Below, one piece after another: positions 5,383 through 63,988 of a DNA stretch of 64,000 nucleotides. Each line of letters starts with the position of its first letter. Positions within the stretch are counted from its first letter, which is position 1. A program made the position numbers and the translations under genes. The stretch covers positions 56,176,206 through 56,240,205 of the forward strand of contig CM067367.1 of NCBI GenBank assembly GCA_034401795.1, given 5' to 3'. Source of the DNA: Chaetoderma sp. LZ-2023a. Lineage: Eukaryota > Mollusca > Caudofoveata > Chaetodermatida > Chaetodermatidae. The notes under the pieces are model-generated. The model was not told the DNA's origin. It did not search any database and was given only the letters and a program-made list of their open reading frames with translations.

Positions 5383-5794
5383 TGGGAAAATAGGACTGAC
5401 ATTCAAATCTCAACATTTCAATCAGAGATAATTTATTTTATTGTGATGATTGCCATAACCACCGTGAGAATATGGAACACCATGATATATGTATGTTTAA
5501 TGTTAGGTGTCCGGCACCACTATGACTATATAGGCAATGCATTCAGCACACAACCTCAACCTGTATTGAAAACATGTAATATCGGTATTCAAAAAGCAAA
5601 TTGTTCAAATACGAAAACTGATACATTTTACAGTAAACGCTGCTATAATTGTTATGTTAATGTGTAGCGGGAAGAATGCAATTTTAGTCAATATCTTAAA
5701 TTATTTTATACTAGTTTATTGCATAACAATCGACAATTCTTGTCAAATAAGGCGCCAAATTATTTTAAGCTATCTCGGAGGTGCAGGGTTTACG
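5383..5794. other. no gene recognised
   Basis: AT-rich DNA with only short unrelated frames. Confidence 0.4.
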
Positions 5795-9888: not shown

Positions 9889-10469
9889 ACTACAAGTTAG
9901 GGTAAGAATCTATCTGTTTTTGGGAAAACAACAGAAATATGTCTTTAAAATGTGTGGGTTTTTTTTAGATATAGGTCCTATTTGTTATTTTTTATTCATA
10001 TGTGAAACGATTTGATAATCTTGCAATTTACCCAATGCATTTGAGCGAAAAATGACTACTTACCTAGCAAATTGTATTACTAATAAATGCATGATTAAAA
10101 TATTAGCACATGTATTGGTCTTCGATGACTTTCGTTCAATCGATCGGTGTACATTCCATGTATGAATTATCGCTGTACACCCTCCTACAGTGTGCTATGG
10201 GGTTATTAAGGTCTTAACAAATTGGTAATGCAAGGGTGATTCCTTTCACCACCCTCTGCTGGTCAGACTAATAAAATAGAATGCATGCGGGTATCAATGG
10301 TCAGTGCTCAATAGTGGGGCGCCCGCCCAGATGTTTTATGACCTATAGTGACTGCGCTTGATTGAATCTGTAACTGTTATAGTTTCGCACAAATTTCTGC
10401 CACGAGCTTAGTAGCATCTTTGTCTGTCAGCATTCGCTTTTAGGCAGATATACAAACAACGTATAAAGA
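9886..10469. other. no gene recognised
   Basis: AT-rich non-coding DNA leading into the 90-bp array. Confidence 0.4.
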
Positions 10470-21545: not shown

Positions 21546-23376
21546 AGAAGGCCTAGTCAGGATTTGTTAAGCCTTAAATAGGCCTTGCCTAGGCATTTGC
21601 ATGGCTTTCATAAGCCTTACGTAGACCTTATCTAGGTCTTAGCCAGACTTTACTAGGCCTTTGCCATGCCTTAGCCAGGTTTTGCCTGGCTATAAATAGG
21701 CATTTGCCAGGCTTCGCTAAGATTTACCTAGGCCATACATGGGCCTTAGCCAGGCTTTGCTACGCCTTAACTAGGCCTTAGAAGGTTTTGCAAGACCTTA
21801 CATAGGTCTTAACTAGGCCTTAGCCAGGGTTTGCGAGGCCTTAGCTAGGCCTTAGCTAGGCTTTGCAAGACCTTTTCTTCGCCTTAGCCTGTTATTGCTA
21901 AGTCTATGCAAGACCTTGCAAAAGCTTTAGACAGGCCTTAGCCTGACCTTCGCCAGGGCATAGGCAGGTAGTAGCCAGCTGTTAACCAGGACGTAGCCAG
22001 ACTTTGCTAGGCCATACAAACCCGTAGCCAGGTTTTGCTAAGATTTACCTAGGTCATACATGGGCCTTAGCCAGGCATTGCCACACTTGAACTAGGCCTT
22101 AGCCAGCCTTTGCAAGACCTTAATTAGGGCTTAGCCAGCTCTTAGACAGGACTTAGAAGGCTTTGCTAAGATTTACCTAGCCATTACCTAGGCATTAGCC
22201 AGGCGTTGTTATGTCTTAAGTAGGACTTAGTCAGGTTTTGCTAAGCCGTAATAAGGCCTAACCATACTTTGCCAAACTGTACTTATGCCTTACCTAGGCC
22301 TTAGCAATGGTTGGCTAGGCCCTACATAGGCCCTAGACAGGTTTTACAAGACCTTACCTGGGTCTTAGCCTGTTATTGCTAGGTCCATGCAATACCTTCA
22401 TAGGCTTTAGAAGGCTTTAGCCAGGCATTAGGCAGGCCTTAGCCAGGCATTAACCGGGCCTTCAGCCAGACTTTGCTAGGCCACACATAAGCCTTAGCCA
22501 GGCTTTGCTAAGATTTACCTATGCCTTGCCTGGGTCTTATCCATGCCTTGCTAAGCCTTAACTAGGCCTTAGTCAGTATTTTCTAGGCCTTACTTGGCCT
22601 TAGCCAGGCTTTGTTAGGACTTATCCATGCTTTACTAGGCCTTATATATGCCTTAACCACGCTTTTCTAGGCCTTAAATAGGCATTACCTGTCTTAACCA
22701 GGCTTTACTAAGTCTTACCTAAGCTCGAGCCAAGCTTTGCTAAACATTGCCTAAGCATTAGCCAGGCTTGCCTATACCACACTTAGGCCTTACTTAGGCC
22801 TTAGCCAAGTTTTGTTAAGCCTTACCTAGGCCTTATGTACACTTTGCCAACCCTTACCTAGTCTTGGCCAAAGTTTGCAACACCTTACCTAGGCCTTAGC
22901 CAGGCTTTGGTAGACCTTATCTAGACATTACCTAAGTGTTAGTCAGGATTTACTAAGCCTCACATTGGACTTACCTAGGCCTTAGTCAGACTTTGCTAGG
23001 CCTTAGCGAGGCTTTGGTAGACTACCTAAGTGTTAGCCATGCTTTGCTAGAGATTGCCTAGGGCGTGGCCAGACTCTGTTAGGTTTTACCTAGGCCCTAC
23101 CTTGGCCTTAGTCAGGATTTGTTAGGCCTTACTTATTCGTAGGCCAAGCTATGTAAGACACTACCTAGGCCATAACCAGGCTTTGGTAAACGTTACAAAG
23201 GCCTTGCCTAGGCTGCAGCAGGCTTTGCTGATTCCTAACTAGACGTTATCTATGTCATAACATGGCTTTGCTAGGCTGTTGCCATGCCGTAGCTAGCTTT
23301 TTCTAGGTCTTAGACAGGTCGTAGCCAGGCCTTATTCAGGCCTTAGTCAGGCTTTGATAGACTTTACCTAGACCTA
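21546..23376 (-). repeat. GCCTA/TAAGG satellite array 1, reversed part
   Basis: From about 21546 the same satellite continues as its reverse complement (CTTAGCCAGGCTTTGCTAGG), to about 23376. The switch is abrupt, within a few modules, next to GTCAGGATTTGTTAAGCC. No unrelated DNA is seen at the junction. Confidence 0.92.
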
Positions 23377-35489: not shown

Positions 35490-36644
35490 TTGGCCCAGCA
35501 GGGCGTGGTTCACGGATCTTCAAGGTCTGCAGGTGGAAAGTCCAGTGCAGTTACCCGAGATTCCGAACATAATCTCCCAGGCCAAGGGACGCTTCCTACA
35601 CGAGCGTCCCGAAATGTTATTGACTGCGTGGTTGTTGTCAAACAACATTCCACCTCGGAGGGCTTTTCTCGACATGCTGCAGATTTCATCGCAGCTGCGA
35701 GAGGGAGGTCAACCTTCAAGTCATATAACAACAAGGTTAACGGATTTGCAGACTGGTGTGAGGAAAAGGGTATTGTTACCTTTCATTCCACTATTCAGCA
35801 AATAGCAGACTTTCTATGTGAGCTGTTCTTTTCAGGACTAGCTCCTGTCACAATTGCTGGATACAAGTCAGCTTTGGCATCAGGTTTCCCTTGTCTAGAC
35901 AGCAGGGATAGTCCAGAGGTGGCCCAGTTGAGTGTGATGGTGAAGGGAATGAGCAATCTCCGACCGAGACAACCGGTAGTCATTCCAGCCTGGAGTCTAT
36001 CTTTAGTGCTTAATGTACTGGCCAAGCACCCTTTCGAACCGTTGCGTTCGGCTAGTCTAAAGCATTTGACTCTAAAGGCGGTCTTTCTATTGGCAGCTTC
36101 CTCAGCTAGAAGGCGCAGTGTGATCCATGCACTTTCAGCAGTGAGGGACCGATTTATTGTCTCCAGAGAGGGTCTGTGTCTACTGCCAAGAGCAGAGTTT
36201 ATGTCAAAGATTCAATCTTTGAGATATCCCGGCAAACCGATCGTTATACCGAAACTAAGTAGGTTTGATCGTGATGCCAGTGTCTGGTGCCCAGTCCGTG
36301 CTTTGACTAAGTACAAAACGGACAGACTCGTTATGGTCGAATGATAGACATCTGTGGATCTGCCATAAGGAGCCGTATGGCGCCGCATCCGTGGATTCTA
36401 TCTCTCGTTGGGTAGTCGAATGCAATCAGACTACCCGTGAGATTACGACTGGTCACCAAGTGCAATGCGCAAGGGCACGATGTTAGAAGAATAGCCGCCT
36501 CTTCCGCCCTTTTACAATGGTGTTCCATTTAAGGACATCATGGCTGTTGCACAATGGCACTGTGAGTCCTCTTTCACGGATTACTATATGAGGGATGTGT
36601 CAGACTTCGCCATTCCACTCGCTTTAGCTGTTTTGAGACGATAG
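35490..36644 (+). pseudogene. DIRS tyrosine recombinase (frameshifted)
   Basis: An open frame of 284 codons (35490-36344) holds the SAM-like N-terminal domain (STFKSYNNKVNGFADWC, IADFLCELFFSGLAPVTI) and the first catalytic arginine block SSARRRSVIHALS. After the stop at 36342 the enzyme continues in other frames. SISRWVVECN is near 36400, the H-x-x-R motif GHDVRRIAASSAL at 36473 onward, and the tyrosine block WHCESSFTDYYMRDVS at about 36552-36600, ending at a stop at 36642-36644. The R, H-x-x-R and Y residues of the family are all present but in three frames. The protein would integrate the circular cDNA. Confidence 0.8.
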
Positions 36645-43110: not shown

Positions 43111-46100
43111 CTTGGTTGGTCTAAAACCTACCAAGGCCTATCTAAGGCATACCTTGGACTGGCTAAGGCATAGTAAGACAAAGTTAAGCCTTAGCAATGT
43201 CTAGCTAAGGCATACCTTAGGCCTAGCTATGGCCTACCAAAGCCTACCTTAGGCCTAGCTACTGTTTAGACAAGGCCGAACGTAGGCTAGCTAAGGCCTG
43301 CGAATGCATAGCTAAGGCCTACAACGTCCTAGCTAACGCCTACCTCAGACCTAGCTAAGGCCCAACTAAACATATACGGCATAGCTAAGGTCTACCAGGG
43401 GATAGCTATGGACTAGCAAAGGTATGGCTAAGGTCTACCAAAGGCCGACCTCAGGCCTAGCTAAGGCATACCATAGGCCAACACAAGGCTTAGCTAAGGT
43501 CTACCAAGGTACCAAGGTGTACCATAATCCAGACTACGGCCTACCAATGCCAAGCATATGCATAAATATGGTCGACACAATGCCTAAAATAGGGCTAACA
43601 ACGGGGTACCAATTCCTAGCACCTGCCTACATATGGCCTACGAAAGCCTAGTTGCTGCTCACCATACGTATGGCTAAAGTCTAGCATAGCCTACCAAGGC
43701 AGGGCTAAGGCCTAGATATGGCCAAAATAATGCTTGCCAAGGCATAGATAAGGCCTACCAAAGCATAGCTAAGGGCTACCTTAGGCCTGGATAATGCCTA
43801 CCACATGCCTAACATATGTCTGGATAAGGCCTAGAAAAGCCAGGCTATGACCTACCTGAGGCCTAGCTAAAGGCTACCAATGCCCAGCTAAGTTCTACCT
43901 TAGGCCTAGATATGGCCTACAAAAGCCTATATTAGGCCTAGCTAAGAGATAATTAAGGCCTACCAAGGCCTAGCTAAGGCCCACTTAAAACATATCAAGG
44001 CATAACATAACTTAGGCCTATCTAAGGCCTATCAGGGCATAGCTACGGTCTAACAATGTATAGCTAAGGCCTACCCTAGGCCTGTCTAAGGCCTATCAAA
44101 GGCCGACATCAGGCCTAGCGAAGGCATACCATAGGCCAACACAAGGCTTAGCTAAGGCCTACTAAGGCATAGCCAAGACGTACCATAATCCAGATTAAGG
44201 CCTACCGAGGCCAAGCATAGGCCTAACTACGGCCGACCCAAGGCCTAACGTAGGCCTACCAACGGCCTACTAAGGCTTAGCACCTAATGTTTGCCAAGGC
44301 ATCGATAAGACCTACCAAGGCATAGCTAAGGGCTAACTTATGCCTAGATAATGCCTACCATAGGTCTGCATAAGGCCTAGCAAGGCCAGTTTATCGTCAA
44401 TCTTAGGCCTAACTAAGGCCTACCAATGTCTAGCTAAGTTCTACCTTAGGCCTACTAAGGCCTACATTTGGCCTAGCTAAGACATAATTAAGGCCTACCA
44501 AGTCAGGGCTAATGCATACATAAGGCTTAGCTAATGCTTGCCTTAGGCCTAGCTACGGCCTACCAAGGCCTCCCAATGCATGGATAAGGCCTACCCTATT
44601 CCTACTTAATTCCTACCAAGGTCCAATTAATGCCTAAATAAGGTCTACCAATTCCTAGCAAGGGCCTACCTTAGGCGTAGCTAAGGCCTACATAAGGCCT
44701 ACCAATGCCTTCCTTAGGCCTACCCAAGCCTACGAATGTCTAGCTAATGCATACCTATGGCCTAGCAATGCCTAGCTAAGGCCTCCTTAGTCCTAGCCAA
44801 GGCCTACCAAGACATAGCTAATGCCTACTACTGTTTAGCCAAGGCTAATATATATATGGCATGCAAGGCATGGCTAAGTCCTAGCTTAGGCCCACTTAAA
44901 ACATACCAAGGCATAGCTAAGTCATACTTTAGGCCTAGCTAAGGCCTACCAGGGCATAGCTAAGGTCTAACAGTGTATAGCTAAGGCGTACCTGAGGTCT
45001 ACCAAAGACCTACCTAAGACCTATCTAAGGCCGACTTCATGCCTAGCGAAGGCATACCATAGGCCAACACAAGGCTTAGCTAAGGTCTACCAAGGTACCA
45101 AGGTGTACCATAATACAGACTAAGGGTTACCAATGCCAAGCATAGGCCTAACTACGGCAGACCCAAGGCCTAACATAGGCCTACCAACGGGCTACCAAGA
45201 CTTAGCACCTGCCTATATAAGGCCTATCAAGGCCTAGCTGCGGCTCACCATAGGTATGTCTAAGTTCGCCGAAGGCATACGGTAGGCCTACCAAGGCATG
45301 GCTAAGGTCTAGTTATGGCCTACCCACGGTCTAACAAGTCATAAATAAGGCCACCCAATGCATAGCTAAGGGCTACATTAGGCTTAGGTAATGCCTACCA
45401 TTGGTCTGCATAAGGCCTTGCAAGGCCAGGCTATGGCCTACCTCAGACGTAGCTAAGACCTATCAATGTCTAGCTAAGGCATACCTTAGGCCTAGCTATG
45501 GCCTACCAAAGTGTACCTTAGGCCTAGCTAAGACATAATTAAGGCATACCTAAGGCCTAGATAAGGCCTAACTTAGGCCAAGCTAAGGCCTACCAAGGCC
45601 TAGCAAAGGACTACCAATTCATGCCTAAGGACTACCATAGGCCTACCTAGGTCATACCAAGGCCTAACTAATGCCTACCTACTGCCTAGCAATTCCTAGT
45701 TATGGCCTATTTTAGGCATACCTAAGTCCTACATAACGCCTAGCAATGCGTAGGTCTAGCTAAGGCCTACCAAAGCCTACCTTAGGCCAGCTAAGGCATA
45801 ATTAAGGCCTACAAGGCCTAGCTAAGGCCTTCCGTAGGCCTAGCTAAGGTCTGCCTAAACCTCTCAAGGACTATCTGAGGCATACCCTAGCCTCGCTAAT
45901 GTCTACAAAGGCCTAGCTAAGCCCTACCAATGTATAGCTAAGGCATACCTCAGGCCTTGCTAAGGCCTACCAAAGCCTACTTTAGGCCTAACTAATGCCT
46001 ACCTAAGGCCTACCAATTCCTAGATAGGGCCTACCTTAGGCCTAGCTAGGGCCTACCTAAGATATACCAAGGCCTAGCTAAGGCCTATCAGGGCATAGCT

Positions 46101-48770
46101 ACCGCCTTATGCCTACAATTGGCCTGCCTAAGGCCTACCAAGGTCGAGCTAATACCTACTGTATGCCTAGCTAAGGAATACCATAGGCCAACACACGGCT
46201 TAGCTAAGGCTTACCAAGGCATAGCCAAGGTGTACAATAATCCAGACTAAGGCATACCAATGCCAAGCATTGGCATAAATACGGTCGACACAATGCCTAA
46301 CATAGGCCTGACAAAGGGCTACCAAGGCCTAGCACCTGCCTACATACGGCCTACCAAGACCTAGCTGCGGCTCACCATAGTTATGGGTAAAGTCTAGCAA
46401 GGCCTTCCAAGGCATGGCTAAGGTCTAGTTATGGCCGACCTAATGCCTTCCAAGGCATAGATAAGGCCTACCAAGGGATAGCTAAGGGCTACCTTAGGCC
46501 TAGATAATGTCTACATAAGGCCTATCAAGGCAGGCTATGACCTACCTCAGACCTACCTAAAGCCTACCAATGTCTAGCTAAGTGCTACCTTAGGCCTAAC
46601 AATGGCCTACCAAAGCGTACCTTAGGCCTAGCTTTAGAAATAATTAAGGCATAGCCAAGGCATACCTAAGGCATAGATACGGCCAAACTTAGGCCAAGCT
46701 AAGGCCTAGTACCTGCCTACATACGGCCTACCAAGACCTAGCTATGGCTAACCATAGGTATGGGTAAAGTCTAGCAAGGCCTTCCAAGGCATGGCCAAGG
46801 TCTAGTTATGGCCGACCTAATGCCTTCCAAGGCATAGATAAGGCCTACCAAGGCATAGCTAAGGGCTACCAGCGCCTAACACCTGCCTACATAAGGCCTA
46901 ACAAGGCCTAGCTGTGGCTCATCATAGTCTACCAAGGCCTACTAGGGCGTGGCTAAGGTCTAGTTATGGTCTACCTAATGCCTGCCAAGGCACAGATAAG
47001 GCCTACCAACGGATAGCTAATGGCTACCTTAGGCCTAGATAATTCTTACCATTGGCCTGCCATAGGTCTGCATAAGGCCAGGCTATGTCCTACCAATGGC
47101 TGGCTAAGGTCTACCATAGGCCTAGCTAATACCTAGCTAAGGCCTACCAAAGCCTACATTAGGCCTTGCTAAGACATAATTAAGGCCTAGCAAAGAAGCA
47201 CTAAGGCATGCGGTCTAAGGCCTAGCTAATGCTTACCTTAGGCCTAACTACGGCCTAGCGAAGGCCTACCAATGTATGGCTAAGGCCTACCCTATGCCTA
47301 CTTAAGTTCTACCAAGGCGTAATTAATGACTACGTAAGGCATACCAATTCCTAGCTTGGGCCTACTTTATGCCTGGCTAAGCCCTACGTAAGGCATACTA
47401 CTGCCAAGCTAATGTATACCTAAGGCCTAACAATGCCTAGCTAATGTCTACCTTAAACCTAACTAATCCCTACTCAAAACACACCAAGGTCTAGCTAAGC
47501 CATACCTTAGGCCTAGCTAAGGCCGAGAAAGGTATAGCTAACGCCTAATAAGGCATGGCTAAGGTCTAGTTATGGCCTACCCAAGTCATAGATAAGGCCT
47601 ACTAATGCATAGCTAATGGCTAGTTAATGCCACCATAGGCCTACCATAGGTCTGTATACGGTCTGGCAAGGTCAGGATATGGTCTACCTTAGGCCTAGCT
47701 AAGGCCTCCCAATGTCTGGCTAAGGTCTGCCTTAGGCCTATCTAAGGCCTACCAAGGCCTAGCTCAGGCGTACCTAAAACCTACCAAGGGCTATCTAGGG
47801 CATACCTTAGACTGGCTAAAGCATAGCTAAGCCCTACCAATGTCCAACTAAGGCATAACTTAGACTCGCTAAGGCCTAGCTAAAGCCTACCAAAGCCGAC
47901 CTTAGGCCTAGCTAAGGCATAATTAAGACCCACAAAGGCCTAGCTAGGCATATATAAGGCCTAGATAATGCTTACCTTAGGCCTACCTAAGGCCTACCAA
48001 GCCCTATCTAAAGCATACAAGGCATGGATAAGGCTTACCCTAGGCATGCTTTAGTTCTACCAAAGCCTAATTAATGCCAATCTAAGGCCTACAGTTTCCT
48101 AGCTAGGGCCTACCTTATGCGTAGCTACGGCCTATCTACCGCCTACCAACGCCTAGCTTGGGCCTAGCTATGGCCTACCTAAGGTATACTCAAAGCCTAG
48201 CTAATGCAAACATAAGGCCTACCAATACCTAGCCAAAGCCTACCTTAGGCCTAGCTAAGACCTACCAAGGCATAGCTAATGCCTACTGCTGTCTAGCTAA
48301 GGCCTACCTCAGTCCTAGCTAACGCCTGCCAGGGCATAGCTAAGGCCTACTACTGTCTAGCTAAGGCCTACCAAGGTATTGTTTAGGCCTATCTTAGGCA
48401 TACCATAGGCCTGCTTAAGGCATAGCAAGGCCTACTTTAGCCAACACAAGGCTAAGCTAAGGCCTACCAAGACATATCCAAGGCGTATGACAGTCCTAAC
48501 TAAGGCCTACCAAGGTCTAGCATAGCCCTAACTACGGCCTACCCAATGCCTATCAACGGGCTGTTAAACCCTAACCCCTGCCTGCATATGGCCTACCAAG
48601 GTCTAGGTGCAGCTCACCATAGGTATGGTTACGGTCTACCGAGGCATACCTTAGGTCTACCAAGACATGGCTAAGGTCTAGTTATGACCTACCTACGGCA
48701 TGCCAAGGCATAAATAGTGCCTATCAAGGCATATTTAAGGACTACCTTAGGTCTAGCTAATGCCTACCAA
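43111..48770 (+). repeat. GCCTA satellite array 2, forward part
   Basis: Degenerate 10-11-bp modules such as GCCTACCAAG, GCATAGCTAAG and GCCTACCTTAG, related to array 1 but with CTACC/ACCTTAGG variants dominant. Diverged higher-order copies are marked by ACCATAGGCCAACAC at 43471, 44128, 45056 and 46180, with a decayed one near 48425. No coding frame. Confidence 0.93.
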
Positions 48771-51960: not shown

Positions 51961-52989
51961 AGCAGTCAATTAGACACTAACAAAAATTGTGACAAAATCA
52001 TAAAAATTGGTTGCTGACGTTGATTGAATGCTATTGTGAGATTAGTCATTATCAGATAGTATATTTTGCAAACTGTACTAAATCTCAATATTTGGACACT
52101 TGTTTCTAGCTATTTACTGGATGATAAATACAAATCATTTAGCCAATAAGAATATTTGTATTTTTGCGAAATTAAATCAACCAATTCCTTATTTACACAG
52201 TAGATTTAGAAGCATCGATATCCCGTTCATAATCTTATTGGGGGAGGAGGGGGGGGGGGGGGGGGAAGTCAAATGGCAAATGCGTTTAATTTTAACCAAT
52301 CATAAGATTGATGAATAAAACAATTCGACCAGTACATAAATCAATCATGAAAATATCACTAAATTCAAATGAGCTTTTTAGACATGCGTGTATGTGTACC
52401 GCCCCAATAACCAATCGGATACGTTGCTAATGGACCTGATCCATGTACCAAGTGTATATTGGTGAGTCTGCATGTCGCCAATTGCATGTCGGAACAGGGA
52501 CCATATACCAATTGTAGGCGTGGTCTATAGCATGTGGATAACCGCAGCGGGCAATAATTCATAGCAGTGTCAAATATAAATATATGAAGCTATGATAGAA
52601 TGTTATATTAACTTGTTTTTTGTATTTCCGATGGGTTTCCCTCGAAATCTCGATGGAACATTATAGGTTTTCTATGATAGTCCGACGAGTTCTGATTAAG
52701 ACTAGGTAACTTTGAACATTTTAAGGGAATCGGTCGATAAATAAGAGTTGGGAATATAATTACTTTTGCCCCTTATTTGAATCCTGCGTGTTTTCACGGT
52801 ATCGAGAATATCCATTCACAACGTAATTCCGACACTAAGTATTCCACTGTTCGGGGAACTCAAACCTAAAAGTACATCAAGTTCTGCCCTATCTACGGGC
52901 GACGTGGTGTTCGCATTGCACGTCCTGGAGGTGGGGGTGGGGGAAGCGACGCAGTAGCAATGGCAATTATGGAACACCGTAGCATAATG
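51961..52989. other. no gene recognised
   Basis: Contains a G run at about 52243-52266. No supported gene. Confidence 0.4.
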
Positions 52990-53742
52990 ATCGTTTATAC
53001 ATATATAAATGTGTCTGCTTAATCCTGATCTCATGGTTTATATACACTTATATACATTTCTGTCTGCTTAATGCTGTTTTTAACACTGTCTGCTTAATGT
53101 TGGTTTATGCATATATACATGTGTCTGCATAATCCTGATCTCATGGTTTATATACACTTATATACATTTCTGTCTGCTTAATGCTGTTTTAACACTGTCT
53201 GCTTAATGTTGGTTTATGCATATATACATTTGTCTGCTTAATCCTGGTTTCGTGGTTTATATATACTTATATGCATTTCTGTCTGCTTAATGCTGGTTTT
53301 TAACACTGTCTGCTTAATGCTGGTTTTTAACACTGTCTGCTTAATGTTGGTTTATACATATATACATTTGTCTGCTTAATCATGGTTTCGTGGTTTATAT
53401 ATACTTATATACATTTCTGTCTGCTTAATGCTGGTTTTTAACACTGTCTGCTTAATGCTGCTTTTTAAAATTGTCTGCTTAATGTTGGTGTATACATATA
53501 TACATTTGTCTGCTTAATCCTGGTTTCATGGTGTACATGTATATATAATTATATACATTTCTGTTTGCTTAATGCTGGTTGTTAACATTTGTCTGCTTAA
53601 TCCTGTTTTTATATATACTTGTATACATTTCTGTCTGCTTAATACAGGTTTATACCACTGTCTGCCTAATGCTGGTGGATACATATATACATTTGTCTAC
53701 CTAATACTGGTTTCATGGTTTGTATATGCATTTGTCTGCCTA
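52990..53742 (+). repeat. TGTCTGCTTAATGCTGG minisatellite, left part
   Basis: A core of TGTCTGCTTAATGCTGGTTT alternates with ATACATATATACATTT and TTATATAC spacers in ~110-bp composite units. The array stops at the CTA (53740-53742) that is duplicated around Academ-like element 1 and resumes at 57382. Confidence 0.85.
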
Positions 53743-53818
53743 TAGTCCGGGAGCCAATTTTCAAAAGGGGTCTAGAAGAATGGTTTCGTAGCACACCCAG
53801 TATTCAGAAGGTTTGTCT
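53743..53818 (+). repeat. left TIR of element 1
   Basis: An outer 12 bp, a diverged spacer, then CGTAGCACACCCAGTATTC plus GAAGGT (53787-53812). The spacer is about 10 bp longer than in the right TIR. Confidence 0.8.
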
Positions 53819-54237
53819 CTATATTATGCTAGACCGATGTCTTGGGTATATACTGTGCCGTGTTGTACAAGTAAATTGTGGTATCACTAACCCGTGAGAA
53901 GCCCATTTACAATAGGTGTTGAATGTAGCTCTCAAACAATTTTCACAATGGTAAATTTTTCACAAACTTAAGCGCATGTTATATCAATACAATCTTAACC
54001 AAAATGGAAAGGAGTGATCGTATATCGCAGATTTATAGATAATCAACCTCGTTTAAGGCACCCGTATGTTGCTTTGTACATATTGGGGCACTTAGGTCTT
54101 CTTGTGACTAGCAATACCTTAGCTACAACAATACCCATGTTTTCTACATTTTTCATAATTAAACTTTTAACTGACATGCAGTGCATGTCTACACAAGCTG
54201 GCAGGACATATTTATCATGTGAGCAAATGAGAGAATG

Positions 54238-56937
54238 TTACTCATCCGTGTCAGAGTCATCTTCGACAATTGTATGCTGAACATTGTCACACATTTCATC
54301 TCCCATACAAAGACATGCTTCAGTGCAGAGTAGATTGTTAGTCTTGCATTGACAGAGATCTGTTCTTTTGCAGGCAGACTTTTGACATCTACATGATGTG
54401 AGTTCAATTAATCCAAATGGAGCAGGATCCTTTGACATTAGAACAGGCTTGAGTAGACCATCCACTATACTCCAGCCATGTCCATTTGGAGATGGAAGAT
54501 TCTGAACAGCTTGCAATGAACGTCTCCAAACAAGAGCTTGAAAATTGGCCCTTTCGGTGTGATGCTTTAGACTATTCGATGTAGGTGGAAGATTTTCATT
54601 TGTTTGTCTCTTTTGACAAAAGAGCCAATAACGGGTTTCATCAGCTGTCTTTCCCACATCCCTGGTGGTATACAACTCACAGACAAATTTCTCACATAGA
54701 ATTGCAGTATTCGGTGATAAGTCAACATGTTCGCCGAGTTGGGCTAAGCTAAGCTGATGACATTCAGATGACTTTAAGAGATTGAATGCTTTTCTCTTAG
54801 CGACTCCAAATAATGCACTAGTGCTATCACAACCTGTAAGAGAATGAAACCCAGGCAAAGACAGACAGATAGCTGGGCCCAGTACTTGAGCAACTGTATG
54901 TATTGGTATGTATCGCAATTTGTCCTTTGTGCCCGTACGGAACCATAGTTCAGAACAGTGAAGCGAACGATACGTATATATACTAAGTACTACCACGTCT
55001 GTATCAGGAGACTGTATAACAACACGCATGTGGTCTTTTGAAGCATGTAGCGCGTGCAACATCATACGCGTATCTGCTTCCTCGTGATCTGATCGAAGTT
55101 CTTCCAAATACGACGAATTGTTCGCTGAAATGACAACAACATCCATTCCATCGTTAAAGCCACCAGCAAGAATGACGCAATTGTCGGCAGATAGCATATT
55201 TGGACCAGTATCATGCCACCGCTTGCTGAGAAATGCAACCAGGTTACTTTTTTTGCTTGGATTGCTGATATACTTGGCCCATTGCTTTGGAACGGGAGTA
55301 TTTTCTCCAGCAATCTTTACTTCCAATGCTGTTGATGACCCACGTTTTAGCCGCTCTTCCGCTTTGAGAGATTCCAGTCTATCATATCTGTCAAAAACTA
55401 TATCTACTCTGTTGCAGTCTTCTTGATTCAGTTGAACTCTAAAGATGTGCCAGTATTTATCAGCCAATTCTCCAAATGTAGACGTACCTCCAGTTTTAAC
55501 CATTTGCACAATTGCCATGCCATCTACTACATAAGCTGTTACGCCTGTCTTGTCAACAGGTGGAAGCCGTCCATCAACATTTACTTCCTTTTCTAGTTCA
55601 CTTAACAAAACACGTTTCACATTCTTTCTTAGAGTCCCATCCGTATGTGACAATGATAGTGGAACAGCAGACAGATCATACGTCATCACTAGTTTTAAAT
55701 CAACATCTCTGGACCTTGCGGCAATAATTAATCGAACAAATAGTTCGCGGTCAGATCTCACATTGTGAATTTTTTCATCATTTGTTTTGAGTTTTTTCTT
55801 CTGTGCTAGGCTGGCAAATGTTTTAAGTTTTAAGTGTGGCAACGTGTCCCAAAAGCTTCTCGTGTTAGTGTCCAGCCGCTCCTGAACAAAATTTTCCATA
55901 ATCTCCTTACCAATGTCACAGGCGGAAACAAGTCTCTTGGCGATTTCACTAGGCAATACCACGCCAGTTGCAATGTTTACAAGCGGAAGACACTTGCTGT
56001 CGTCGTTTTCCGCAATATTAAAGGGATTGGTCATTATATCTGATGAGAACATCGAAAGTATCTTCTGCACATCGGTTTCATCCCTGTTCATTCGATTAGT
56101 CCCCATTTCCTTATGTACTCCAAACATGTGACTATCTTGTAACCCACACATTTGCTTTGTGACCGTTGTTATGGCTGCCCTCTCGTGGCTAGTTAAAAAC
56201 CACCTCTCCAGAGCTCCTGGCTTTTGTGTTATTCCAATAATACCACCTCGCTTTTTGGAATCCAAATTAATCGATTGCTCTAAGGCCATATCTGTCCACA
56301 CTTGATTGAATGGATGGTCTGAGCGACTTACGGAATGATTTCCATTCAAGAATTGTTCATGTACATGGGGATGTGTACTTGGAAGCATCTTCATGTCCGC
56401 AAGATATATTGGCAGCCATCTTGCATATTTGGTTCTGTCCATGCTGTAGAAATATGGCGCCATAGCAGCAGTAGCAGATAGGTGTGCCTGCCAATCTCCA
56501 GTTCTCTCAGCTCTTATGAATCCAAGCAGCAACTCTACCATATGAATATATGAGTTCCAAAATGCGAACAGGTGTGATTTCGAGCTTGACTCAACTTTAA
56601 AGGATTTGAACAGCTGTTGCAATTTATTCACGTACATACACACCTCTTTGAAATTTTCTTGCAGTGCGTCTAAGTCGTCAATGCTGCTTCGGCACATCTT
56701 AATTTCCTCATCCAGAGTCTCCAATTCTGTTGGAGTAATGTGGTCTTCATGTTGTCCATTTTGTTGAACCCATTTGGAAAAAGACTGCCATTGTAATCGC
56801 AGCAGCGCTTCCATAACCAATTTGTGAGCCCTCACTCCTCGATTATATGACTTCCCTTTAAGTAGAGCAGCAGCCGTGCTGCTACCATATGTGTTGGCCT
56901 CTATGAGGAGATCTTCTAAGCCAGAGTCATCAAACAT
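54238..56937 (-). CDS. XPG/FEN-like nuclease with C-terminal CXC domain, transposon-encoded
   Basis: 899 codons, intact from 56937 to a stop at 54238. Residues 214-224 (WTDMALEQSIN) and the GGIIG that follows look like the end of a DDE-type domain whose start is missing. Residues about 465-720 fit an XPG/FEN-like nuclease: VVDG (Asp472), VFDRYD (Asp514), HEEADT (Glu619, Glu620, Asp622), SPDTDV (Asp645, Asp647), and TGCDSTSALFGVAKRKA (Asp704), a helix-hairpin-helix-like block. Residues 849-884 are a cysteine-rich CXC (tesmin/TSO1-like) motif, CRCQKSACKRTDLCQCK, a DNA-binding type. The tail is acidic. The Met start is doubtful: coding similarity continues upstream after a frameshift at the C run 56978-56984. 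Likely acts in the nucleus in transposition. Homologous parts lie in element 2. Confidence 0.75.
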   Translation of the reverse strand: MFDDSGLEDLLIEANTYGSSTAAALLKGKSYNRGVRAHKLVMEALLRLQWQSFSKWVQQNGQHEDHITPTELETLDEEIKMCRSSIDDLDALQENFKEVCMYVNKLQQLFKSFKVESSSKSHLFAFWNSYIHMVELLLGFIRAERTGDWQAHLSATAAMAPYFYSMDRTKYARWLPIYLADMKMLPSTHPHVHEQFLNGNHSVSRSDHPFNQVWTDMALEQSINLDSKKRGGIIGITQKPGALERWFLTSHERAAITTVTKQMCGLQDSHMFGVHKEMGTNRMNRDETDVQKILSMFSSDIMTNPFNIAENDDSKCLPLVNIATGVVLPSEIAKRLVSACDIGKEIMENFVQERLDTNTRSFWDTLPHLKLKTFASLAQKKKLKTNDEKIHNVRSDRELFVRLIIAARSRDVDLKLVMTYDLSAVPLSLSHTDGTLRKNVKRVLLSELEKEVNVDGRLPPVDKTGVTAYVVDGMAIVQMVKTGGTSTFGELADKYWHIFRVQLNQEDCNRVDIVFDRYDRLESLKAEERLKRGSSTALEVKIAGENTPVPKQWAKYISNPSKKSNLVAFLSKRWHDTGPNMLSADNCVILAGGFNDGMDVVVISANNSSYLEELRSDHEEADTRMMLHALHASKDHMRVVIQSPDTDVVVLSIYTYRSLHCSELWFRTGTKDKLRYIPIHTVAQVLGPAICLSLPGFHSLTGCDSTSALFGVAKRKAFNLLKSSECHQLSLAQLGEHVDLSPNTAILCEKFVCELYTTRDVGKTADETRYWLFCQKRQTNENLPPTSNSLKHHTERANFQALVWRRSLQAVQNLPSPNGHGWSIVDGLLKPVLMSKDPAPFGLIELTSCRCQKSACKRTDLCQCKTNNLLCTEACLCMGDEMCDNVQHTIVEDDSDTDE

Positions 56938-57121
56938 CTTTCCAATAACAGCTAAGTAGTTTAGCGCAATGTGGAATCCCCCCCAGTCTGATCACAGTGT
57001 CACTAAACTCTTCTTTATATCGCCACTGTATCTCCTTTGCCTTGACATATATGGCCAAGCCTTTGGTATATGCATGCAAAATGTATGTTGGATATATGTT
57101 AGGTCGATATCCGTCTAAATA
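56938..57121 (-). pseudogene. upstream continuation of the element 1 gene, out of frame
   Basis: Reading upstream, the frame stays open past the annotated Met as GFHIALNYLAVIGK. At a run of seven C (56978-56984) one extra base puts the preceding codons in another phase, where YVKAKEIQWRYKEEFSDTVI and RLGG are read. Dropping one base would give the smooth join RLGGFH. This phase is open to a TGA at 57122-57124. The zinc-finger and first DDE parts seen in element 2 are absent. This is either a true mutation or a homopolymer sequencing error. Confidence 0.6.
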
Positions 57122-57320
57122 TCATATATGGTGAATCTAATACGATATTACTTTGAGTTATGACACGATCATGCTTATATCGTTGTGCACTGTGGATACA
57201 GCCAAAGCCTAGACCCCCTATGCAAAGAAATCAGGATAACTAATTAGTGCTACCACAATTTGTTTGTACAACAGGGCTTAAAATGTGTGGGACATGTCCC
57301 CCAAGCCACAGCAAGTGTCA

Positions 57321-57381
57321 GACCTTCCGAATACTGGGTGTGCTACGTCGCGATTCTGACCTAGCTTTAGCTCCTGGACTA
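57321..57381 (-). repeat. right TIR of element 1
   Basis: Inverse counterpart of 53743-53818: ACCTTC, GAATACTGGGTGTGCTACG and the terminal GCTCCTGGACTA. Confidence 0.8.
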
Positions 57382-57712
57382 CTAATGCGGATTTCATGAT
57401 TTATATTTACTTATATACATTTCTGTCTGCTTAATGCTGGTTTTTATCACTGTCTGCTTAATGCTGGTTTATACATATATACATTTGTCTGCTTAATGCT
57501 GGTTTTATGCATATGGATTTTAAGTAGACACCAAATCGTGTATATTTTATATTATTAATTTCGTTGATTAACTGGATTCATACGTTAGGCTAAATACAAT
57601 TTTTACTTAGAATTTGCTGTTTGACTTAATATATCTGCCATAAGTAAAGATATACAAAATTGTCTGCTTAATACTGGTCTTTAGACACTGTCTGCTTAAT
57701 GCTGCAATTAGA
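57382..57712 (+). repeat. TGTCTGCTTAATGCTGG minisatellite, right part
   Basis: Resumes with CTAATGCGGATTTCATG and several TGTCTGCTTAATGCTGG units to about 57510, then an unrelated AT-rich stretch, then two more units at about 57660-57710. Confidence 0.8.
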
Positions 57713-58061: not shown

Positions 58062-58379
58062 TAGTCAGGGTCACAGTGTAAAAAATATTTTTTTCGTTCA
58101 GAATTTTTGGGGATTTGTAAAACTATATATTTTCGGAAAGCTTTTAATGTGTCTATTTCAAAAACCAATGTTTGCATTTGCACAAAAGTCTTCATGGCGG
58201 CCATCTTGAATTTCAAAATGGCCGCCATCGAAAATCTTTGAAATCCAATATATCTGCAACCATATGACCTAGATTAATAATTTTGATGACTATATCTATG
58301 TTTTCTGGGTCAGTGAATGCATTGGTAACATTTATAATAAACTTCAAATAACAGAAATCATGTTTTGGTAGATAAGTCC
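58062..58379 (+). repeat. left TIR of element 2 (~318 bp)
   Basis: Matches the inverse of 63680-63988 over nearly its whole length, for example TCGTTCAGAATTTTTGGGG, CAAAAACCAATGTTTGCATT, TCCAATATATCTGCAACCAT and ACATTTATAATAAACTTCAA. It contains a small palindrome around GATGGCGGCCATCTTG / AAAATGGCCGCCATCG (58195-58230). Confidence 0.88.
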
Positions 58380-58533
58380 TGACTTAATATGTAATTTACA
58401 GACAGCATCTGCAAATTTGTAACTTTTTGTGATAATGTTGCAATGATGAATTTTATTTGGCATATAACAGAGTTATCTCACCAATTTAGTCTAAGTATTC
58501 AAGCAACAATCAATGTGCTGCATCAGTTGCTGT

Positions 58534-58611
58534 CTACCTAGCAACATTGGCGTCATCTTCATCATCTGATATAGAGACATCAACGATTGAGTCATCATCA
58601 TTTTCACACTG
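58534..58611 (-). pseudogene. element 2 gene, acidic C-terminal tail, out of frame
   Basis: After CQCSA the preceding segment meets a stop. Skipping one base gives CENDDDSIVDVSISDDEDD and a stop at 58534. This parallels the CDN...EDDSDTDE tail of element 1, so the tail belongs to the gene and a 1-bp indel separates it. Confidence 0.6.
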
Positions 58612-59317
58612 CGCTGCATTGACAAAGCTCAGTGCATGGTAAGTCTTTGGATTTGCACGAGCATCGATGAGAGGAACAATTCGATTTGCATTGACACCTA
58701 ACCATCTCAATGAGAGACTTTGGAGCTGGTAAAACATCTGTTGCTTTTGCCTTTAGTTGGCCACCTGTCTCCTTGTAGTATCCATTCTGTAGTGGATCCA
58801 GAAACACATGATGTGAAATGTCTGCCTGACCCCACACATTTGCCTGAACTTGTACTCTAAGGACATGCTGTTTCAAAGCACCAATAGTAGGCGGTAGACT
58901 TTCACTATCAGCAAGCTGCTTACAGAATAAATGCCAACGTAACTCTGGGATGTTCTCGATTCTAATAGACTTTGGACAGTATGCAGCGCACACAAATTTT
59001 GCCAGAGTTGAATGTAGTTCATCTGTGATCTCAGTGCTTCTCGATAAATTTATCAGAGCGTCAATTACATCCCTGTCTGCCTTTAGGAAAAGCTTTAACC
59101 ATGTTGATTTACCTATCCTAGAGAACCTGCCAATATTGTCTGCTCCAGTAAAGGCATGGAATGCAGGTAATGCTCTTACTTTCTCCATGCCTAGAGTTTT
59201 CCATATAGGCCGTAGCTTAATGGTACCAGAAACCATTGAGATAGACGTATTCTTAGGTAGATTGTCATAATATGCTATTGCCAGCACTAAGACATCAGTG
59301 TCTGGAGAGAAAATCAC
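58604..59317 (-). pseudogene. element 2 gene, XPG I-like region and CXC domain
   Basis: 237 codons in the same phase as the next segment upstream, from which it is separated only by an in-frame TAG at 59318-59320. It begins IFSPDTDVLVLAIAYY (two Asp of the nuclease centre) and has FHAFTGADNIGRFSRIGKST, the HhH-like block with Asp. It ends with the CXC motif VRCQCKSNCSSHRCSCKSK and CTELCQC. Every block has a counterpart in the element 1 protein (residues 642-884). Confidence 0.7.
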
Positions 59318-60478
59318 CTACTCTGCTGTATCAAGATTTCGCTGTGTTGCACATATGGCATGATAGATCATTAATGTATCAGCTTCCTCATGATTGTTGT
59401 TCTCAAAATGTAGGCTTCTATTACTTATCGTCTGGCCTGATGCTGATGCTATGACCAAGGTAGATGAGTCTTTATTGTACTCAATAGTCTTCTCTGCCAG
59501 ATACTGCGCAAGGTCATTCTTTGTTTGGTCATGAGACAAAAATCTTGTCATAGGGATATGCTTGATACTGGTATCATCTTTGACTTGATATCTAACTGGA
59601 TCCTTCCCATGTCGTCGTTTCTCTCTGGTCGTGTTTTTCAGGGAATCTGCTTGATATGTATCAAATACAAGAATGATCTCATCATATCCTGCTGTCAGAC
59701 TCATTAACCTGTCATTAAAACATTTACTAAGGTCGTTGACTGTCACAATAGTTGCTGGTTTCTTTGCCAGCTTCTGGACAAGAACCATTCCATCCACAAC
59801 TGCGATTCTCCTACTAGATTCCTTAGTTGCGATGGCAGTTGCGACGCCAGTTGCTTCTGTTGCACGTAATAAGAGTGAATCCTCTGTGCTCTCGGTTTGT
59901 GGTAGGTCAGTCAGGAGCTTGATTAACTTCGACTTGTCAGTGCACTGTAGGACAGAGCCACACGGAGCAAACAGCGCCCTCGGTGTCAGTGTGAATTCAA
60001 AGTTGCCGATCGAATACTTCAAATCAATGTCTCGACTCGACTTTGCGAGAATCATCAGCCTAGCATATAGATTCTTTGCCAGCTTCTGGACAAGAACCAT
60101 TCCATCCACAACTGCGATTCTCCTACTAGATCCCTTAGTTGGGATGGCAGTTGCGACGCCAGTTGCTTCTGTTGCACCTAATAAGAGTGAATCCTCTGTG
60201 CTCTCGGTTTGTGGTAGGTCAGTCAGGAGCTTGATTAACTTCGACTTGTCAGTGCACTGTAGGACAGAGCCACACGGAGCAAACAGCGCCCTCGGTGTCA
60301 GTGTGAATTCAAAGTTGCCGATCGAATACTTCAAATCAATGTCTCGACTCGACTTTGCGAGAATCATCAGCCTAGCATATAGATCTTTAGTTTCCTTGAG
60401 ATCAACAGCTTTGTCACGAATACGTACTGTTGTCTTTTTGTTTCCAGATGTATACATCTTGTTTTTCTCACGCTTCAC
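59318..60478 (-). pseudogene. element 2 gene, XPG N-like region with 104-codon in-frame duplication
   Basis: 386 codons. A 312-bp unit (about 59760-60071 and 60072-60383) is present twice in tandem with only a handful of differences. It repeats LYARLMILAKSSRDIDLKYS through RRIAVVDGMVLVQKLAK, so the protein would carry the first XPG aspartate (VVDG) twice. Downstream are LVFDTYQADSLKN (Asp) and NNHEEADTLMIYHA (Glu/Asp cluster). It ends at the TAG at 59318. The start is not natural: the sequence upstream is in another phase. Relative to element 1, about 150 codons between the DDE-end block and this region are missing. Confidence 0.7.
59760..60383 (-). repeat. 312-bp tandem duplication inside element 2 gene
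   Basis: Two direct copies offset by exactly 312 bp, nearly identical (differences include CCTTAGTTGCGATGG against CCCTTAGTTGGGATGG, and GCACGTAAT against GCACCTAAT). Either a recent tandem duplication or an assembly artefact. Confidence 0.9.
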
Positions 60479-60492
60479 TGGTGCCCAAAGGC

Positions 60493-61389
60493 TTACCTCT
60501 CCATTAATGCATGATCCGCACCAATTGAAGTGAATGGAATGTCATTCTTAGTCACTGCAATGTTTTCAGTTTCAAATTCTTGCCATGTGTCTGGATGATT
60601 CTGCTTGAGTGCATACATATCTGCTATGTATCTTGGCCAAAGACGTTTGTATTTGATTCTATCAAAAGCAAAGAATGACTTGCTCAGTGCTTCTCCAGCT
60701 TCAAGATGAAGGGTCAGATCAGTATTTCTGGATGCTGCGACAAAGAAAAGGATTGTTTCCACATGGTGCAGATAGTTCATTAATGACTTGAACATCGCAT
60801 GTTGGGACCTCTTTGTCACCCATGTGTGAAAGAGATTCAGCATATCAGTATTAGACAGCACTTGGAGAAGATTGCTATGAGCCGGCATCGCTGATTCTGC
60901 CTGGCTGGCTTGGTTTGATTTACTGCATGCCTCTCCTATGTCATCTGTAGCTGATATGCATGCATCCCTTAGATTTGGATACTCTTTGAAGAATTCGCCA
61001 AAGACCAGTTCATACAATGCGATGTAAGAGTAGATATTAGCATGAAGAGAACGTGAGTAGTGCTTGCATTTCAGGATTTGTGTCGTTGTGGTAGAGCTAA
61101 AGCCATCAGCCTCGATCCATGCATCGTCTATTCCGGAATTCTCAATAGAAGTACCGAGAGCTCTCAATGCAGCCATGACGACATGGAGTTCACCAAGTCT
61201 TGGGATAACACCACTCTTTAAATTGGCATTGACATCTACAAGCTGCACTGCTTTCTCATACAGGGCCATGTCAAAAGTAATGACTGTTAGATGGTCTTTA
61301 CCAACAGCCATCTTCGTCAATGTTTGTGCTTGTTTAATTACAGTCATTAGCGTTGACCATTCATGAGCCAGCTCTGGGAGAAGAGGCAA
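60493..61389 (-). pseudogene. element 2 gene, central part (to DDE-like Glu region)
   Basis: 298 codons. SGIDDAWIEADGFSSTTTT aligns with SGLEDLLIEANTYGSSTAA of element 1, and DRIKYKRLWPRYIADMYAL with DRTKYARWLPIYLADMKML. It ends PFTSIGADHALMER then a stop, where element 1 reads ALEQSIN and continues. So the region after this point is deleted here and the putative catalytic Glu block is altered. The upstream frame (62075-61404) joins by a frameshift near 61403-61410. Confidence 0.65.
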
Positions 61390-61403
61390 TGCACCAACAT
61401 TGG

Positions 61404-62075
61404 TTAGAGATCTACTTGAGATGACAGGAGTGAATTATACCCAGCCCACCCAGGAACCAAACACATCTCTTTCCTTTCATCCATCCTCGCAACAACAGAT
61501 GCTATGACCCAACCCATATGGGTCAGCTGATAAGAGTCTGCAACACCGGTTTTACTCAACACAAAATTACTTTGCATTCCAGGTTGAGCCTTTGGTGTGA
61601 CGCATGGCAACATAGATGTGTGTTGTGGTGTAATGGATAAGCTCTTTGCATCACCAATGTTTAAAGGTGGTGCAATGGGTTCCCCGGGTGCAGAAGCTTT
61701 TTGATAGACCGCAACAATTGTTCCATGTGTAGTACATTTACCATCAATGGTATCCTCAGAAAACTCGGTGTTGTCCACAGCAAAGAAAACAAATGTTCCT
61801 TTCTTTAGAAATGGTGGTACATACAGATTATTGAATTGTCTCATGTTTTCGACAACCGAGTTAGCTATTGCTGTTTCTAGAAGCATGGTACGGTGGTAGG
61901 ATATGCAACAGTTCTGTGCATGAAGAAGATTCACAATCTTCTTATTCCTGGTGTCGTGATGCACAGATAATGCCAATCCTAGAACCTGAGAATTTTCTTT
62001 TCTTTGCTGGGATCTGCATTTTTCAGAAGAGGCAGCTTTAGGTCTATGCATCACTTGTAAGCACTGCTCTATCAA
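61404..62075 (-). pseudogene. element 2 gene, putative DDE catalytic core part
   Basis: 223 codons. It contains SQVLGLALSVHHDTRNKKI, LHAQNCCISYHRT, then FVFFAVDNTEFSEDTIDGKC and TTHGTIVAV. The invariant-looking Asp in AVDN (residue 101) within a hydrophobic strand resembles a DDE-type catalytic Asp. This reading is inference. The frame overlaps the preceding segment by 32 bp and joins it by a frameshift at about 62045-62075. This part is absent from element 1. Confidence 0.55.
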
Positions 62076-63258
62076 CGAGACACTCTCTGGTTTTGCTATC
62101 CAACCTATCTACAGGTCCAACCATTATCCATCGTATCAGTGTGTATAGTTCACATGGGATGTCATCCATATTGCTGGAAACAAGGACTGAACCAGGTTCA
62201 CCATCATTCTTAGTTAATGTTGTGATGCTTTTTCGAACAATCTGTGCTGCCCTATAGATCGACTTCATGCCTTCCATACCATCTTCTTCACACATCGCAG
62301 AATGAACCATTTCTTCCTCACATGCTTCTAGCGAGTACAGAACGGCACACTTGCGCCTGTCCTTTTGAAGGACAGATCTTACATGATTTAGCTCAGAAAG
62401 GATTTTCTCCTTCAGCCACTGCCTACTAAATGTAGGTGAATGATTGTCCAAGGATTTACGGTCAAACATGTTTATATATGTTATTTCTATGTCAGCCATA
62501 GACAGATAAGCCCCATTTCTGGTGTGTGTATCAACAATATGGATAATTTCAATCAGACATGCCATTTGCCGGGAGAGATCATTCTCAGCATTTCTTGTAG
62601 TATCTGAATCTCGTAAAATGTGGAAAACATGCTTCCTCCAGCATGGCTTGTGATACCGGACATCAATTGCATGTGCATCACACTGGGAAAGCGAGGTATT
62701 TAATCTAGTAAGTAATGCTGTATCTTGTGCTATTTTCAATGCATCTCTTAGGGCTTTACCAGCATTATGAGTTCGTAATTTGAACAACTGCTGATTATGA
62801 TCGTCTGTCTGGCAGAAGAAACATAGTTCCTTACACAGTGGAATTGTCGAGGAACGTGTAAATACTGAAGTTGATGTCGATGCCTCATCAATAGCACTTT
62901 TCCTCTTTATCCCACGTTTCTGAGTAATGTAAGACCCACTAGATAGTGCATCCTCTATGCGATTTCGAGCACGTCGTATTTCTTCTTTGTTAGTGGCAGT
63001 AGAGTAACAACTGCGATGCCAACCCGCTTTATGTGAAGATAGGTCACCATATGTGCAAAGTCTAAGTCTTTTCTGAATTTCAATGTATGAACCATCTTTC
63101 AAAGTTGCTCTCTCTTCGACTGCTTGCAACAAATTGGTAAATGAGTCTATTCTTGGATGCTGCACCATTGGTCCTTTAACAGTAGCATCCGTCTGGCATA
63201 AAATGCATAGCTTCCAGTTTGTTAACTCCTGTGTTGCATCAAGCTGTACATCGCTCAT
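62044..63258 (-). CDS. element 2 gene, N-terminal part with two zinc-binding-type modules
   Basis: 404 codons from a Met at 63258, just inside the right TIR. Two similar modules each have C-x2-C and H-x2-C: CILCQ (Cys18, Cys21) with WHRSC (His81, Cys84), and CFFCQ (Cys146, Cys149) with YHKPC (His203, Cys206). They are probably DNA-binding or dimerisation fingers of the transposase. A long alpha-helical-looking region follows (SFTRQWLKEKILSELNHVRS-type text near 280-310). The frame ends at a TAG at about 62044, where the rest of the protein continues in another phase. As it stands it could encode a truncated protein of unknown activity. Confidence 0.6.
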   Translation of the reverse strand: MSDVQLDATQELTNWKLCILCQTDATVKGPMVQHPRIDSFTNLLQAVEERATLKDGSYIEIQKRLRLCTYGDLSSHKAGWHRSCYSTATNKEEIRRARNRIEDALSSGSYITQKRGIKRKSAIDEASTSTSVFTRSSTIPLCKELCFFCQTDDHNQQLFKLRTHNAGKALRDALKIAQDTALLTRLNTSLSQCDAHAIDVRYHKPCWRKHVFHILRDSDTTRNAENDLSRQMACLIEIIHIVDTHTRNGAYLSMADIEITYINMFDRKSLDNHSPTFSRQWLKEKILSELNHVRSVLQKDRRKCAVLYSLEACEEEMVHSAMCEEDGMEGMKSIYRAAQIVRKSITTLTKNDGEPGSVLVSSNMDDIPCELYTLIRWIMVGPVDRLDSKTRECLVDRAVLTSDA

Positions 63259-63679
63259 GATGTACTCAAATTTGATGACAAAATATATTTGATCAATGCT
63301 TATTGCAAGATTACAAACGATAATCCTGAAGATTATTGCTGTCTGATTATGTTTATTGCAAATCTATGAGCAGACGATCATTTGAACAACTTTTCTGCAA
63401 AAATTTGCTTTCAGTTTACTTTTACTGGTGAATTTGAAAATTACCCTGGGCCATCCATTATTGTAAAATTGTGACACGCCGCTCACCATATACATATTCT
63501 GTCATAATATGTTTATTAATAAACATGATGACAATGTGATTACGTAGATAACAGGCCATTGGGCTATATCGTCATTCTATCCCCTCTATAGGATTACTAT
63601 GGGCTACTGTAACATTTAAATAGTGTAACAAATATTGATTTAGAAAAAAGATGTTGTGTGAGAATTGCTTATTATTTTG
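63259..63679 (-). other. element 2 5' non-coding interval
   Basis: AT-rich stretch between the gene's apparent start and the inner edge of the right TIR. The promoter would be expected here; no specific motif was identified. Confidence 0.4.
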
Positions 63680-63988
63680 GGAATTATCAACCAAAACATT
63701 ATTTCTGGCACTTGAAGTTTATTATAAATGTTATCAATGCATTAGTTGACCCAGAAAACCTAGATATAGACATCAAAATTGTGAATTTAGGGTACATGGT
63801 TGCAGATATATTGGATTTCGAAGGATTTATATGGAGGCCATTTTGAAAATTCAAGATGGCCGTCATAAAGACATTTATGCAAATGCAAACATTGGTTTTT
63901 GAAATTGGCATATAAAATGCTTTCCAAAAATATATAGTGTTACAAATCCCCAAAAATTCTGAACGAAACTACATAGTGAACCCTACTA
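63680..63988 (-). repeat. right TIR of element 2 (~309 bp)
   Basis: Inverse counterpart of 58062-58379, ending GTGAACCCTACTA before the TAC duplication. The minus-strand frame at 63699-63953 lies wholly inside the TIR and is not a gene. Confidence 0.88.

Follow-up and report, generated by a model that had tools for sequence, protein, structure and literature searches.

The AcademX lineage of Academ DNA transposons was reportedly defined by Kojima in 2020, its nuclease is of the XPG type, and we know of no experiment that has settled the role of this nuclease beside the DDE transposase. Academ is one of the 17 DDE/D superfamilies used in a study in which the curated mollusc consensus sequences of Academ had a mean length of 5,565 bp (PMC10294476). 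Target-site duplications (TSDs) are of 3-4 bp in AcademX and of 9-10 bp in AcademH, a difference that has been related to the encoded nuclease and helicase (PMC10045372), and TSDs of 3 bp are also made by PIF/Harbinger (PMC2213677) and Zator (PMC10045372). The passages of PMC11071193 make no mention of Academ elements. The subject here is an element of 3,639 bp in the genome of the caudofoveate mollusc Chaetoderma sp. LZ-2023a (GCA_034401795.1), where it lies in a stretch of 64,000 nucleotides of contig CM067367.1 (positions 56,176,206 to 56,240,205), the whole of which was analysed and is called the window. The element is probably a dead, internally deleted and young copy of a cut-and-paste DNA transposon of the Academ type (AcademX-like). 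Its insertion is ordinary. The family to which it belongs is unusual: judged by probe counts, many different deletions have removed one and the same half of a two-part enzyme from most copies, and the other half has been kept.

The AcademX reading rests on the TSD of 3 bp, the terminal inverted repeats (TIRs), the single long gene with DDE-like and nuclease-like parts and the 6-kb length of full-length copies; the element behaves like an AcademX transposon and probably is one. TIRs, a 3-bp TSD (3-4 bp in AcademX) and a length of about 6 kb are shared with that lineage, as the nuclease-like second part would be, whereas a C-terminal CXC domain and a widespread loss of the N-terminal half go unmentioned in the extracts of PMC10045372 and PMC10294476.

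The insertion, the family and the copy in the window

The element sits in a minisatellite, its termini read TAGTCCGGGAGC...GCTCCTGGACTA and it is flanked on either side by CTA (Table 1). Local alignment of both 170-nt ends gave a score of 94 against a maximum of 35 among 500 shuffles, and the subterminal inverted repeats (53787-53890 and 57244-57347) were 70% identical. The original prediction, of a transposition into the minisatellite with duplication of CTA, was borne out by an empty-site comparison: flanks joined through one CTA rebuilt the repeat best when aligned with the upstream array at 52985-53735 (score 121), with lower scores when both CTA were kept (108), when neither was kept (112) or when two bases were dropped (114). 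The predicted 899-codon frame was likewise present. The element had been taken for a shorter related transposon, but mapping against full-length relatives showed that it derives from a 6.17-kb element by internal deletion.

Relatives were sought in the window's own genome (2.44 Gb in 2,753 contigs). Using the 899-aa protein, 51 matches were scored of 23,884 first-look candidates, with identities of 96-100%, and 32 of these 51 best-scoring copies (the window copy counted) were free of stops over the 899-aa stretch. The 20 best-scoring copies after the window copy were fetched with their flanks. Only four of the 20 were full length (6,163-6,166 bp), and the whole 1,621-codon frame was open in two of these (L010 and L015) and broken in the other two. 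An exact 3-bp TSD was found in all 19 fetched copies that could be scored, each with differing flanks, which makes 20 of 20 with the window copy (one of the 21 being unscoreable), and no exact 4-bp match was found among the scored fetched copies. The TSD bases were A or T at 54 of 60 positions, compared with a fraction of 0.623 in the flanks (p 3e-6). At the 20 TSD sites C stood directly before the triplet in 11 and G directly after it in nine, and a palindromic target preference, C-WWW-G, is possible.

The abundance of the family was estimated with probes placed along the full-length element. Genome-wide pattern searches, allowing up to 2 mismatches and with zero matches to the reversed control of each probe, returned 1,469 matches for the 5' end, 1,394 for the start of the nuclease (nt 4393) and 1,475 for the CXC region (nt 5537). 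The N-terminal coding probe (nt 1952) returned 167, a count that divergence may have lowered, this probe having been designed from the four full-length copies, whereas 21 copies served for the others. The original prediction had allowed for the case that no other copies shared these TIRs; the 1,394-1,475 probe matches show that such copies are numerous. When the left TIR served as a DNA query, 3 places were returned, a count that was disregarded, since that search skips common words; the other end matches at 1,469.

The ATG of the 899-codon frame is an internal methionine of the longer gene, and upstream of it the protein continues in another phase. The G run at the phase shift has 7 bases in the window copy; among the 20 fetched copies 15 have 6 bases, two have 5 and three were unscored. 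Lengths other than 6 alter the reading phase. Compared with L010 the window copy has lost 2,528 bp, with a junction overlap of 1 bp and no filler. The deletion begins in non-coding sequence ahead of the gene and reaches codon ~682, taking the start codon and about the first 682 codons with it; of the proposed DDE residues D499 and D682 lie in the deleted part or at its edge, and the FEN1/XPG-like acidic motifs and the CXC domain are retained. The junction has a single match genome-wide, so there is no sign that the window copy moved after losing its 5' half. A deletion common to the window copy and L012 was rejected, as their breakpoints differ.

Protein anatomy and probable relationship to Academ

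Two C..C...H..C finger-like repeats were recognised by eye at the N-terminus of the 1,621-aa protein. In the middle part D499, D682 and E735 are kept in element 2, a relative in the same window (58062-63988), and these residues may form a DDE triad. DUF6589 was matched at aa 700-906 (E 6e-4, 19 bits, under the cut-off of 27); in the limited literature collection that was searched there were no papers on DUF6589 and none linking an XPG nuclease with the transposase of a DNA transposon. Further towards the C-terminus the acidic motif residues (Table 1) are conserved across the two families at 28% identity, and their order is one that we take to be that of FEN1/XPG nucleases. The Pfam model TCR was matched by the 1,621-aa protein at E 0.11, again under the cut-off. 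Both the nuclease and the transposase fold of this protein are putative. No relatives were found in IMG/VR contigs, phages, plasmids or GTDB prokaryotes (one genome per species).

With this anatomy the N-terminal fingers of the full-length protein would bind the TIRs and the DDE-type centre (D499, D682, E735) would cut and join, while the FEN1/XPG-like nuclease and the CXC DNA-binding tail might help in end processing. The 3-bp TSD would arise from integration at AT-rich triplets. The window copy would probably derive from interrupted gap repair after an excision, as the 1-bp overlap at its junction suggests.

Several points must be set against this reading. Neither XPG/FEN1 nor a DDE transposase was matched in Pfam or NCBIfam, and the PDB gave no sequence match of either kind. 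Comparison with a four-sequence FEN-1 profile gave a weak score of 24.1 (P 0.027), against a highest score of 20.9 among 40 shuffles, and the match spans the last motif only. The likeness to Academ was drawn from published descriptions. Finally, the strong asymmetry of the deletions would not be expected from abortive gap repair on its own.

AcademH shares the superfamily name only; it has a TSD of 9-10 bp and a helicase (extract of PMC10045372), whereas here the TSDs are of 3 bp without an exact 4-bp match and the 1,621-aa protein had no helicase match in Pfam. Element 2 shares with the element described here the domain order, a 3-bp duplication (TAC in element 2) and TAGT termini, but differs in the sequence of its TIRs (TAGTCAGGG... 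/ TAGTAGGG...). Its protein is homologous but longer than the 899-aa one, with 28% identity over the aligned protein (27-33% in parts) and a tblastn E of 4e-36. Beyond TAGT the TIRs of the two are unlike (scores 19 and 17, the shuffle mean being 19), and the view that they are separate families of the same type was upheld. The gene of element 2 is in several frames, has one in-frame stop and is missing a stretch that is present in the other element; there is also an internal tandem duplication near 59750-60390.

Internal deletions and their asymmetry

Internal deletions were found in 17 of the 21 copies (the 20 fetched and that of the window), with 13 distinct junctions. BLAST overlaps at the junctions were of 0-10 bp, the larger ones with mismatches, and filler was found in none of the 17. 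One copy, L018, had the deletion size of the shared class but another junction and is perhaps a converted version of it, in which case there are 12 junction types. The left breakpoints of all 17 fell at nt 181-568 of the full-length element and the right breakpoints at 2088-2951, the latter side being bounded by the query used for finding copies. One junction was common to five of the 17 deleted copies and had 70 matches genome-wide. Four of the five fetched copies with this junction had different exact TSDs, the fifth being unscoreable, so the deleted form has moved in trans. Insertion with a 3-bp duplication, dispersal and the spread in trans of one deleted form are direct observations.

Pairing of exact probe matches on one contig, C1, was meant to reduce the bias that comes from choosing copies by the 899-aa protein. 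A caveat to be applied to the C1 counts is that with exact matches only they miss diverged copies and that pairing needs both probes; the genome-wide counts are free of that. Downstream of the 95 5' ends on C1 the nuclease-half probe was present in 87, the N-terminal probe in seven and neither probe in eight. There were 67 pairs of a 5' end and a nuclease start within 7 kb, and 62 of these were deleted by 1,609-3,362 bp, the remainder being one with a 674-bp deletion and four of full length. Deletions of more than 1 kb fell into 40 size classes, a size class being deletions no more than 4 bp apart; sizes are not junctions, and classes may split or merge them. The N-terminal probe had nine matches on C1. 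In five the distance to the 3' half was full or nearly so, two were shortened between the N-terminal part and the tail and two were without either 3' probe, so at most four of the nine resemble mirror-image losses. From nuclease start to tail there were 64 paired places with a spacing less than 200 bp off that expected. The C1 pairing and the genome-wide counts show that the asymmetry is not confined to the fetched sample; the family itself is marked by loss of the DDE half while the nuclease half is retained.

The cause of the asymmetry may lie in the mechanism of repair, an account to which we would give slightly less than an even chance. Repair synthesis after excision would extend a long way into the element when it starts at the 3' (gene-end) terminus but only 0.2-0.6 kb from the 5' terminus; the DDE half would be lost and the nuclease half kept with no selection involved. 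The ranges of the left and right breakpoints, the right one bounded by the query, are consistent with such an origin, and it is favoured because the single-copy deletion of the window likewise keeps the nuclease half. However, the 3' part that is kept seems to stop near 1.7 kb, enough for nuclease and CXC, with no tail to zero, a floor that is estimated from the largest C1 deletion and the breakpoint range and below which the eight of 95 5' ends lacking the nuclease-half probe could fall. The ceiling of four in nine on N-terminal probe matches that resemble mirror-image losses also counts against it.

Selection among elements is possible too, although we hold it to be somewhat improbable. Derivatives would spread in trans only if they kept the nuclease half, either because the nuclease works on the very element that encodes it or because a DNA site that is needed lies in the 3' half. 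The 70 dispersed copies of one deleted form, with different exact TSDs in four of the five that were fetched, point in this direction, as do the probe counts of 1,394 for the nuclease start and 1,469 for the 5' end beside 167 for the N-terminal part, and a need in cis is favoured by that form together with the apparent floor of ~1.7 kb. Against it, inserted copies seem to decay neutrally and the single-copy deletion of the window retains the nuclease too. Cis-acting nuclear proteins are moreover unusual for DNA transposons. A more specific form of this account, which we consider unlikely, makes the nuclease half a selfish unit that is needed in cis for movement by a transposase supplied in trans; derivatives with nuclease and CXC but no DDE part would then have arisen independently on many occasions and would account for the majority of the ~1,470 copies of a burst. 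The role of the nuclease can be put to the test with these natural deletions, for which exact ends, TSDs and intact full-length relatives are available.

Other origins, age of the copies and further features

That the same anatomy belongs to another superfamily (PIF/Harbinger, Zator or an undescribed group) which makes 3-bp TSDs and has acquired a FEN1-like nuclease is quite improbable. Both named superfamilies do make 3-bp TSDs (extracts of PMC2213677 and PMC10045372) and no library model identified the catalytic domain. However, in the extract of PMC10045372 only AcademX is linked to both a nuclease and TSDs of 3-4 bp, and the 1,621-aa protein had no Pfam match to a Harbinger or Zator transposase at E <=10, a search in which the HMMER filters drop many weak matches. 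PIF/Harbinger shares the 3-bp TSD, but here there is a single 1,621-aa gene with a FEN1-like part.

Divergence from the majority was 0.09-0.85% in the first 21 copies (the 20 fetched and that of the window) and 0.34-1.28% in 20 further copies, and the copies measured are young. In the first 21, a sample biased by having been picked for protein similarity, private changes were N162:S76:X5 (omega 0.75) and shared changes N12:S7:X0 (omega 0.60; small numbers). Greater weight was given to 20 segments from contig C1, which were 20 of the 64 paired places, taken along the contig with the frame not looked at. Here private changes were N110:S32:X5 (omega 1.16) and shared changes N9:S4:X0 (omega 0.76; small numbers). 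Nine of the 20 segments had neither a stop nor an indel and 11 had one or the other, the figure of nine being if anything too high, as seven paired places had been skipped that were already fetched, of full length or more than a few bases off in spacing. Inserted copies seem to decay neutrally, and the open 899-codon frame reflects youth, not selection. With so few shared changes, weak constraint may still have acted in those lineages that moved. The long frame had been thought to suggest either fairly recent activity or selection; recent activity fits the 41 copies at 0.09-1.28% from the majority, whereas selection does not fit an omega of 1.16.

A short autonomous family or solo nuclease gene under selection, as the 899-codon frame might suggest, is very improbable, for although the 899 codons are open, with 32 of the 51 best-scoring copies stop-free there, shared changes lean synonymous in both small samples (omega 0.60 and 0.76) and private omega is 0.75 in the 21 similarity-picked copies, the identical sequence sits within the 1,621-codon gene of two intact full-length copies, private omega is 1.16 in the 20 segments (11 with a stop or indel) and the window's deletion occurs in one copy only.

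Table 1. Positions in the window of the element and its parts
Feature	Position	Strand	Basis or remark
Whole element, internally deleted copy of the 6.17-kb family	53743..57381	coding strand minus	TIRs, flanks, full-length relatives
Target-site duplication CTA, left copy	53740..53742	.	
Target-site duplication CTA, right copy	57382..57384	.	
Left terminal region at the gene's downstream end, with terminal and subterminal inverted repeats	53743..53912	.	End alignment against shuffles
Right terminal region at the gene's upstream end	57212..57381	.	End alignment against shuffles
899-codon frame, matching aa 723-1621 of the full-length copy's 1,621-aa protein	54238..56937	-	
C-terminal CXC (Tesmin/TSO1-like) cysteine domain, predicted	54283..54396	-	Pfam TCR E 0.15, aa 848-885, under cut-off
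FEN1/XPG-like acidic motif region (vvDGm, vFDr, EEAD, DTDv, tGcD)	54772..55524	-	Acidic residues kept in element 2
Codon of proposed third catalytic residue E (E735)	56899..56901	-	Putative triad
Remnant of coding sequence in another phase, ahead of the 899-codon frame	56978..57059	-	Phase shift at G7 run 56978-56984
33-mer over the deletion junction (at about 57059)	57044..57076	-	One genome match, <=2 mismatches

Elsewhere in the window about 24.6 copies of a 90-bp satellite form an array at 10462-12669, where periods of 269 and 449 were likewise detected. Long degenerate arrays of an 11-bp TAAGGCCTAGC-like unit occupy 12672-23352 and 43129-48552, in opposite orientations in parts. A 284-codon frame at 35490-36344 reads, as an impression from its sequence, like a tyrosine recombinase of the DIRS/Crypton type.

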